Positions 33,477-35,815 of a stretch of 64,000 bases of DNA are shown here, piece after piece. The notes beneath the pieces were generated by a model that did no database searches, was not told the DNA's origin, and was given only the letters and a program-made list of their open reading frames with translations. Source of the DNA: Micromonospora chersina (lineage in GTDB: Bacteria > Actinomycetota > Actinomycetes > Mycobacteriales > Micromonosporaceae); NCBI RefSeq assembly GCF_900091475.1, contig NZ_FMIB01000002.1, positions 4,278,001-4,342,000 on the forward strand, in the 5' to 3' direction. The translations under genes were made by a program, and so were the position numbers. Position 1 is the first letter of the stretch. The number at the start of each line of letters is the position of its first letter.

Positions 33477-34880
33477 GTGTCGGTCACCGACGAGACGCGC
33501 TCGGAGCGGGCCGGGGGGCAAACGCCCGCACCCGCGCCGCGGGACGGCCAGTTCGAGAAGACCCCGCCTCAGGACGTGGCCGCCGAGCAGTGCGTCCTCG
33601 GCGGCATGCTGCTCTCCAAGGACGCCATCGCGGACGTCGTCGAGATCCTCAAGTCGAACGACTTCTACCGCCCGGTGCACGCCACCATCTTCGACGCGAT
33701 CCTCGACATCTACGGCCGGGGCGAGCCCGCCGACCCCATCACCGTGGCCGCCGCGCTCGCCGACTCCGGCGACCTGGCCCGGATCGGTGGCGCACCCTAC
33801 CTGCACACGCTCATCGCCAGCGTCCCCACCGCGGCCAACGCCGCGTACTACGCCCGCATCGTCGGTGAGCGGGCGGTGCTGCGCCGGCTGGTCGAGGCCG
33901 GCACCCGGATCGTCCAGTTGGGCTACGGCACCGGCCAGGGTGGCAGCCGGGACGTCGACGACATCGTCGACCTCGCCCAGCAGGCCGTCTACGAGGTGAC
34001 CGAGAAGCGCGTCAGCGAGGACTTCGCCGTCCTGGCCGACATGCTCCAGCCGACGCTCGACGAGATCGAGGCGGTGGGCGCCCAGGGCGGGGTCATGACC
34101 GGTGTGCCCACCGGGTTCAGCGACCTCGACCGCCTGCTCAACGGCCTGCACCCGGGTCAGCTCATCATCGTGGCCGGCCGGCCTGGCTTGGGCAAATCGA
34201 CCGCATCTATGGATTTTGCCCGAAATGCCGCTATCCGCTTCAATCAGGCGTCGGCGATCTTCTCGCTGGAAATGAGCAAGGTCGAGATCGTCATGCGACT
34301 CCTCTCGGCCGAGGCGCGCGTACCGTTGCACGTGCTGCGCAGCGGCCAGCTCTCCGACGACGACTGGACCAAGCTGGCCCGCTGCATGGGCGAGATCAGC
34401 GAGGCGCCGCTCTTCGTCGATGACACGCCGAGCATGAACCTGATGGAGATCCGGGCGAAGGCCCGGCGGCTCAAGCAGAAGCACGACCTCAAGCTGATCG
34501 TGGTCGACTACCTCCAGCTGATGACCTCGCCGAAGCGCACCGAGAGCCGGCAGCAGGAGGTCGCGGACCTGTCCCGTGGCCTGAAGCTGCTGGCCAAGGA
34601 GGTCGAGTGCCCGGTGATCGCGGTGAGTCAGCTGAACCGTGGCCCGGAGCAGCGCACCGACAAGCGCCCACAGCTGTCCGACCTGCGTGAATCGGGCTCG
34701 ATCGAGCAGGACGCCGACGTCGTCCTGCTGCTGCACCGCGACGACTACTACGACAAGGAGTCGCCGCGGGCGGGCGAGGCGGATTTCATAATCGCCAAGC
34801 ACAGGAATGGCCCGACCGACACGGTCACCGTGGCGGCTCAACTCCACCTGTCGCGCTTCGTGGACATGGCCATCGTATGA
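33477..34880 (+). CDS. dnaB: Replicative DNA helicase DnaB (intein-free)
   Basis: The 467-residue helicase has its N-terminal helical domain at about 30-140 ('PPQDVAAEQCVLGGMLLSKDAI') and the RecA-like domain with Walker A 'GRPGLGKS' (234-241), 'FSLEMSK', the Walker B region 'LIVVDYLQLM', 'AVSQLNRG' and 'LRESGSIEQDADVVLLLHR'. It unwinds DNA at the fork. GTG 33477, after an AGGGGGGA site, gives the usual length. M. tuberculosis DnaB holds an intein; this one is continuous across the P-loop and ESG/SIEQ sites. Codons around the P-loop (34186-34250: TTG, AAA, GCA, TCT, TTT, AAT) are rare here and the stretch is near 56% GC. The stop overlaps the next gene as ATGA. Confidence 0.97.
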   Translation: MSVTDETRSERAGGQTPAPAPRDGQFEKTPPQDVAAEQCVLGGMLLSKDAIADVVEILKSNDFYRPVHATIFDAILDIYGRGEPADPITVAAALADSGDLARIGGAPYLHTLIASVPTAANAAYYARIVGERAVLRRLVEAGTRIVQLGYGTGQGGSRDVDDIVDLAQQAVYEVTEKRVSEDFAVLADMLQPTLDEIEAVGAQGGVMTGVPTGFSDLDRLLNGLHPGQLIIVAGRPGLGKSTASMDFARNAAIRFNQASAIFSLEMSKVEIVMRLLSAEARVPLHVLRSGQLSDDDWTKLARCMGEISEAPLFVDDTPSMNLMEIRAKARRLKQKHDLKLIVVDYLQLMTSPKRTESRQQEVADLSRGLKLLAKEVECPVIAVSQLNRGPEQRTDKRPQLSDLRESGSIEQDADVVLLLHRDDYYDKESPRAGEADFIIAKHRNGPTDTVTVAAQLHLSRFVDMAIV

Positions 34881-35815
34881 CCAGGGTTGGTCGCCGGCTG
34901 ACTCCCGCCGAACGGGAGGAGATCCTTGCCCGGGCGACCAGCGGTGACAGCATCACCGCCATCGGCGTGCGTTACGGGGTGACGAGGCAGGCGATCCGGG
35001 GCCTCCTCCGTCGCAACGGAGTGCCGCCCCGCCGCGCGGGCACATTGACGGACGCCCAGAGATCCGAGGTCGTCCGCAGATTTCTCGGTGGAGCGTCGCT
35101 CAGCCAGATCGCTGCGGACTTCGGTGTGACAGCCCCGTCCGTTCGTGGTCTTGTCCTTCGCCGAGGCATCCAGATCCGGTCGGTGTCTGAGGGTCTGCGG
35201 CACGATGCCTTCGACAGCTTCGAGCCGGACACCTGTTACTGGATCGGGTTCCTGTTCGCGGACGGATGTGTCAGCTACCGCCCGGGTCACATTCCCCAGA
35301 TCTCCGTCGGCCTGGCCGAGCGGGACCGAGACCACCTGGTGGCCCTCCGGAGCTACCTGGGCTGCGACAACAGCATCTCGCGTACGAGCCCGACTCACGG
35401 GTCGTGCCAGTTCTCTGTGCGCTCACACCGGCTGGCGGACCGCCTCGTCGAGTTGGGTCGGTACAAGCAAGCGATCGACGAACGGCTGGTCGCCTCTCGC
35501 GACTTCTGGCGTGGCGTTGTGGACGGCGACGGATCGCTGGGCATCTACCGGCGCCCTGCCCCGAGCACTCGGTCCTTTGCCCAGTTCAGAGTGGTGGGCC
35601 GGCGCCACGTGCTGGATGCGTTCGTAGCGTTCCTCGAAAACGAAGGGATAACCGGCCTGTCGGTGCGGCCGCACCGGAGCATCTTCACGGTGGGGACCAC
35701 CTGTGGGCCGGCCGAGCGGATTGCCGCGCTGCTCTACGCCGGTGCCGCGACAGCTCTTGCCCGTAAGGCCGAGACCGCCGCGCGGATGATTGGGCGGCAG
35801 CGCGAGGGCGCGTGA
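34877..35815 (+). CDS. Free-standing LAGLIDADG homing endonuclease with two HTH domains
   Basis: The 312-residue protein starts with two similar helix-turn-helix units (about 8-46 and 57-98; both 'LT.A.R.E(E/V)...GDSIT/ASLSQIA..(Y/F)GVT' patterned). Two LAGLIDADG motifs follow: 'IGFLFADG' at 123-130 and 'RGVVDGDG' at 212-219, with the metal-binding acids Asp129 and Asp218 present. A single chain with both motifs acts as a monomeric, site-specific double-strand nuclease. No intein splice residues are visible. GC content is lower (roughly 64%) and codon use more relaxed than around it, a sign of transfer. Its ATG overlaps the dnaB stop (ATGA), so it should be translated with dnaB. Its target is unknown, dnaB itself being the obvious candidate. 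Confidence 0.9.
   Translation: MTRVGRRLTPAEREEILARATSGDSITAIGVRYGVTRQAIRGLLRRNGVPPRRAGTLTDAQRSEVVRRFLGGASLSQIAADFGVTAPSVRGLVLRRGIQIRSVSEGLRHDAFDSFEPDTCYWIGFLFADGCVSYRPGHIPQISVGLAERDRDHLVALRSYLGCDNSISRTSPTHGSCQFSVRSHRLADRLVELGRYKQAIDERLVASRDFWRGVVDGDGSLGIYRRPAPSTRSFAQFRVVGRRHVLDAFVAFLENEGITGLSVRPHRSIFTVGTTCGPAERIAALLYAGAATALARKAETAARMIGRQREGA

Follow-up and report, generated by a model that had tools for sequence, protein, structure and literature searches.

Free-standing homing endonucleases of T4-like phages are encoded by stand-alone genes near their presumed target and show a patchy distribution. In fungal mitochondria, mobile open reading frames (mORFs) have been described in atp6 of Allomyces macrogynus and in atp6, atp9, cox2 and nad3 of Glomus sp.; in these genes the endonuclease open reading frame (ORF), of the LAGLIDADG type in atp6, cox2 and nad3, brings in an in-phase foreign C-terminal segment of the host gene, and the displaced native C-terminal segment lies downstream and is nearer to relatives than the inserted one (PMC3630166). 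Here we analyzed a stretch of 64,000 nucleotides from Micromonospora chersina (contig NZ_FMIB01000002.1, positions 4,278,001 to 4,342,000 of the forward strand; this whole stretch is called the window), in which dnaB, the gene of the replicative helicase, is followed by a gene for a LAGLIDADG homing endonuclease. We propose, with a probability of roughly 0.85, that the mobile unit at this locus consists of replacement dnaB codons ~436–466 together with the nuclease gene and would thus represent a homing cassette that is both intron- and intein-free.

The fungal mORFs share with the dnaB element the foreign in-phase C-terminal segment and the native segment displaced downstream. The dnaB element differs from them by its location in a bacterial chromosome and in a replicative helicase gene with a single site in dnaB, by a nuclease that has its own start codon overlapping the dnaB stop and an N-terminal pair of helix-turn-helix (HTH) units, and by scars and decayed relics across two actinobacterial families. 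This likeness is one of function, drawn by analogy, and we make no claim of descent. The nucleases of T4-like phages are also stand-alone and patchy, whereas the dnaB element is chromosomal and carries a host-coding replacement. With the inteins at the two dnaB sites a and b it has the host gene, LAGLIDADG-type homing and a trough in synonymous codon usage in common, but there is no protein splicing and the helicase is kept whole by the replacement tail. No bacterial endonuclease that replaces the C-terminus of its host gene was found in the open-access literature, searched at abstract level and with subscription journals outside the search.

The dnaB tail and its displaced copies

Carriage was surveyed at 160 dnaB loci, 159 from the 160 genomes of the genus (G301 is missing) and one from Virgisporangium (G349). 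The nuclease gene is present at 26 of them, 21 times near full-length and five times as a fragment, and by reading frame 15 of these copies are intact and 11 are broken; L067 was removed from the intact set due to a frameshift that separates the HTH part from the remainder. At least six loci scored as gene-free (G249, G283, G276, G148, G294 and G295) appear by eye to begin with a nuclease remnant. A sequence-only reading of the window had proposed a mobile nuclease lodged beside the dnaB 3' end and had named an ORF present everywhere, with no empty allele, as evidence against itself; with 134 of the 160 loci lacking the gene, this is not what we found.

In order to locate the border, each of 20 carriers was compared at third codon positions with its nearest non-carrier, chosen by the dnaB body, and non-carriers with their own nearest non-carrier served as controls (n = 127, matched range). 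Codon 1 of dnaB is at position 33480 of the window and codon 466 is the last sense codon. G349 was excluded from the tail-divergence and codon-step analyses, and L111, L120, L139, L177 and L190, all scored gene-free, were excluded from these and from the tree analyses because of mapping trouble. The divergence in carriers amounts to 0.105 in the body, 0.214 at codons 415–432, 0.404 at codons 433–444 and 0.461 at codons 445–466, compared to 0.111, 0.219, 0.276 and 0.213 for the same segments in the controls. The tail/body ratio is 5.28 in carriers versus 1.68 in controls (p = 1.2e-6), whereas the ratio for codons 415–432 is alike in both (p = 0.93). Resolved into steps of three codons, the excess is +0.03 at 433–435 and +0.25 at 436–438, stays between +0.07 and +0.34 per step beyond codon 438 and reaches +0.73 at the last codon, so that foreign sequence starts abruptly at codon 436 and continues to the dnaB stop. 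The alignment with related genomes suggested by the sequence-only reading for mapping the borders yielded the empty alleles but put the border inside dnaB, at codon ~436, and not between the genes: the nuclease is patchy, dnaB-linked and mobile as proposed, but the dnaB tail probably belongs to the element as well. Compared with the alleles of G157 and G187, the window differs exactly at codons 437–438 (ATAATC versus ATTGTC). The nearest non-carrier of the window, L116 (G181), has the same ATAATC at codons 437–438 and several of the next codons, followed by a native tail, and looks like a mosaic scar.

A native tail displaced downstream of the nuclease ORF is seen in Nonomuraea sp. SYSU D8015 (locus L294, genome G714). 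Its functional tail is AT-rich, with a G+C content at third codon positions (GC3) of 0.36, and is followed by a nuclease gene frameshifted near its start and then by a second tail of 84 bases and a stop, which begins at codon 436/437 and has a host-like GC3 of 0.82 and a native ending. This second tail is nearer than the functional one to 23 of the 27 gene-free Nonomuraea (mean 0.871 versus 0.768) and scores 140 against the native tail consensus, with a shuffle maximum of 25. In N. jabiensis (L291, G765) the native tail after the nuclease gene is decayed (92, shuffle maximum 24), and in M. sicca (G237) its final 45 bases including the stop are kept as a decayed relic (57, shuffle maximum 23), the best gene-free locus reaching 34 as a measure of noise. 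The foreign C-terminal segment is in phase with the host gene, both at the Micromonospora step at codon 436 and in the tails of G714 and G765 (GC3 0.36).

An ordinary free-standing nuclease inserted in the spacer after dnaB and cutting nearby, with the dnaB coding sequence outside the element, would fit the position of the gene directly 3' of dnaB in carriers as well as the window, in which there is no relic tail. It would even account for a foreign dnaB end, as one-sided co-conversion of a flank is expected of any homing event. Nevertheless, the second native tails past the gene in three genomes require an insertion inside dnaB, and the sharp beginning of the foreign sequence at codon 436 shows no gradient, which makes an insertion into the spacer improbable.

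The four exceptions among the gene-free Nonomuraea are L365, L386 and L387, with tails 93–94% identical to the foreign type, and L380, which is intermediate (0.833 versus 0.810). No nuclease match was found within ~1.5 kb downstream of dnaB in these four loci, and we read the first three as tail-only scars, in which a foreign-type tail is present but the nuclease gene is missing, and L380 as a partial one. A 45-aa stretch with 62% identity to the Nonomuraea nuclease (L341; G757, C23:509447-509581) lies ~8 kb from a scar-bearing dnaB in the same genome. The three scars also bear on the idea that the AT-rich tail was not imported but selected in place for the translation start of the nuclease. 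The last codon is indeed tied to that start: among Micromonospora carriers the last dnaB base and the TG of the TGA form ATG, GTG or TTG in 24 of 25 cases, among non-carriers in 21 of 134. Selection in place is nonetheless very unlikely, since the three Nonomuraea have the tail without the gene, native second copies exist and the excess begins 31 codons ahead of the nuclease start.

Codon troughs and dnaB inteins

Across the 160 dnaB genes GC3 is mostly at or above ~0.9, with isolated low codons, e.g. Arg366 and Arg387, and three multi-codon troughs at codons 235–252, 397–414 and 433–444. The first two are the insertion sites of the inteins a and b and serve as internal controls for the reading of the troughs; at the third (site C) no intein was seen in any of the 160 genes. 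In the 134 gene-free loci the low GC3 does not extend beyond site C (0.665, against 0.928 in the tail); in carriers both site C (0.571) and the tail (0.726) are low. Outside the genus, site C shows a GC3 of 0.847 in 30 loci from other genera of the family and of 0.922 in 29 loci from the class, and the trough is therefore mainly a Micromonospora feature. We take it as the mark of a putative homing site, produced by recurrent invasion, incomplete conversion or escape. At site a, GC3 is lower in intein-free alleles (0.515) than in occupied ones (0.739), which may stem from changes that evade cleavage or from inteins lost in the past.

Among the 159 Micromonospora dnaB genes 78 contain the a intein and 45 the b intein, and the sizes of other inserts, besides the a and b inteins and fragments, vary widely, which suggests inteins with and without endonuclease domains. 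The dnaB of the window itself is intein-free, giving a continuous tblastn match, but the earlier suggestion of an intein-free lineage fails for the group, as the a intein is about equally common in carriers (14/26) and non-carriers (64/134; Fisher p = 0.67). The b intein is rarer in carriers (1/26 versus 44/134; Fisher p = 0.0016 without kinship correction), and after kinship correction the pairs stand at 1.0 versus 5.6 with a median p of 0.125 in the sign test, so that mutual exclusion of nuclease and b intein is a lead only. A conversion tract extending from site C could remove a b intein 30 codons upstream. Neighbouring inteins have been reported to hinder each other's homing (PMC10643990).

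With two busy intein sites in the dnaB of the genus and PI-PfuI as the best structural match, one might think of an endonuclease domain that escaped from a dnaB intein and is still tied to the site of that intein. Such an escape is highly improbable, as the nuclease is a separate ORF past the dnaB stop without any Hint family in the domain search, and the replaced segment begins 30 codons past site b. A blastp comparison with five extracted dnaB inteins gave a best E of 0.003 (30.6% identity over 72 aa) to one a intein only, and an intein-derived endonuclease was rejected as a candidate.

The nuclease, its spread and a proposed homing cycle

The sequence-only reading had described an ORF of 312 residues with two HTH units, two LAGLIDADG motifs and an ATG overlapping the dnaB stop, all of which was confirmed by ORF analysis, Pfam, structure model and alignment. 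The structure prediction it had proposed as a check shows a LAGLIDADG core with the HTH pair, the core consisting of two alpha-beta-beta-alpha-beta-beta-alpha halves (Foldseek, VIA-align) with D129 and D218 at the ends of helices 117–129 and 208–218. Neither motif acid varies among the 27 aligned relatives or the 15 intact dnaB-linked copies. The assignment rests on fold and motif residues and not on the Pfam model, as the LAGLIDADG_3 match stays below the curated cut-off (19.2 versus 22.5 bits). Among the PDB matches from Foldseek and VIA-align are the homing endonucleases I-Tsp061I, I-DmoI, PI-PfuI and I-AniI, and the window ORF is thus best described as an intact single-chain LAGLIDADG homing endonuclease, for which site-specific cleavage is predicted. 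The regulator WhiA is also among the solved-structure matches and has the fold and HTH-based DNA binding in common with the nuclease. In WhiA the catalytic acids are lost and the LAGLIDADG core comes first, with the HTH units at the C-terminus. A domesticated WhiA-like regulator, co-expressed with dnaB after loss of the nuclease function, is hardly credible for a mobile, patchy and decaying gene (11 of 26 copies broken) that has kept both acids and has its HTH units at the N-terminus; by the same features the nuclease does not belong to WhiA.

The intact copies are under purifying selection, with a median dN/dS (nonsynonymous to synonymous substitution rates) of 0.144 and a range of 0.11–0.28, calculated over those 11 of the 105 pairs whose dS is below 1.2. 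In a search of 354 genomes of the family, matches (E ≤ 0.001) were found in 38, and the 24 strong homologues given as loci (L001–L024) are all located directly 3' of dnaB. Among 27 loci from named genomes 17 are close relatives, all of them adjoining dnaB and including three Nonomuraea and one Virgisporangium; the remaining ten do not exceed 38% identity, and none is directly behind dnaB. The closest protein (99% identity) is again from Micromonospora chersina, and homologues from metagenomes are 40–50% identical. On the dnaB-core tree (155 rows) presence changes 23 times, a number that may be inflated because the dnaB core resolves poorly, and 16 independent pairs lie on well-supported branches. 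G147 shows a conflict that is well supported on both trees, grouping with G236 by dnaB (99/98) and with the clade of the window by the nuclease (100/100).

For the cassette of tail and nuclease gene we suggest the following cycle. The enzyme would recognize an empty dnaB around codons 433–444 and cut it at codons ~436–438, and repair of the break would copy tail and nuclease gene from the carrier allele. The incoming tail would fuse in frame to the host dnaB, and since the element carries its own copy of the gene end the helicase should remain unbroken upon invasion. The tail of the host would be overwritten, or else it would end up behind the nuclease gene and decay there; later the nuclease gene itself may decay or be lost, but the foreign tail would have to stay and form a scar. 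Translation of the nuclease is probably coupled to dnaB via the overlapping start codon, and a carrier could plausibly protect itself through a changed cut site, as codons 436–438 differ in many carriers. Of these steps, the replaced end of dnaB, the displaced and decaying native tails and the tails retained after nuclease loss are visible in the sequences, while cutting, copying by repair, resistance of carrier alleles and coupled translation are predictions.

Several observations weigh against this model. The window and the remaining carriers have no displaced tail above noise, so that the displaced tails come from three other genomes. Two of the 20 carriers, G158 (0.14) and G180 (0.18), show no tail excess relative to the control mean of 0.213, and the tail of the Nonomuraea carrier G705 is no closer to the foreign type (0.798 versus 0.810). 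The trough at site C is partly general: in other genera of the family GC3 falls to 0.73 at codons 439–444, though it is 0.96 at codons 433–438. Finally, the topology of the nuclease tree is broadly that of the host (Mantel r = 0.665), and transfer therefore takes place mostly among relatives.

Beyond this locus, we lean towards a bacterial class of homing elements that would invade conserved sites of essential genes with neither intron nor intein, bringing along a replacement for the remainder of the host gene; these elements, like inteins, would leave codon scars that mark the homing sites. If true, homing endonucleases would have a third route, next to introns and inteins, into conserved positions of essential bacterial genes, and the homing sites of stand-alone endonucleases might be read from genome sequence alone in GC3-saturated genes. 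Dependent on the same reading, the stages of the cycle would be visible in living species as an intact insertion, a native tail left behind, a decayed nuclease and a tail-only scar, the dnaB 3' end would have to be treated with caution as foreign in many actinobacteria, and dnaB codons ~436–438 would be a target that can be tested.

Features of the window and distant homologues

Table 1: Positions of dnaB, the proposed homing cassette and the intein sites in the window.
Feature	Position	Strand	Remarks
dnaB, replicative helicase	33477..34880	+	likely GTG start at 33477; Pfam DnaB N and C domains; TIGR00665 DnaB, 534 bits
Intein site a (P-loop, codons 235–252)	34182..34235	+	empty in the window; synonymous-codon trough present
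Intein site b (RESG/SIEQ, codons 397–414)	34668..34721	+	empty in the window; synonymous-codon trough present
Putative homing site C region, dnaB codons 433–444 (EADFIIAKHRNG)	34776..34811	+	third GC3 trough; start of the replaced segment
Predicted cut inside site C, codons ~436–438	34785–34793		
Replacement tail, dnaB codons 436–466	34785..34877	+	probable part of the mobile cassette, from codon-resolved divergence and displaced Nonomuraea tails
LAGLIDADG homing endonuclease gene, 312 aa	34877..35815	+	ATG overlapping the dnaB stop, ATGA
Two tandem HTH units, residues 10–46 and 59–95	34904..35161	+	Pfam and structure model
Two-motif LAGLIDADG core, residues 113–312	35213..35812	+	
Catalytic-type Asp129	35261–35263		
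Catalytic-type Asp218	35528–35530		

No phage donor was found, as 18 phage records match the nuclease but none over 80% of the query, with 24.9–29.1% identity in the best 10 of the 18 records. Similarly, 26 loci in viral_contigs show 24–30% identity and none has a dnaB match. Beside 33 distant loci (10 genomic and 23 of the 26 viral ones) there was no clear duplication of a tail of the same gene, apart from some scattered short matches, in a test that misses decayed relics, since from its positive controls L294 was recovered by both searches, L291 by the protein search only and L287 by neither. One distant homologue (L304, 31% identity), from a Solirubrobacteraceae genome, is located 1.5 kb upstream of dnaB.
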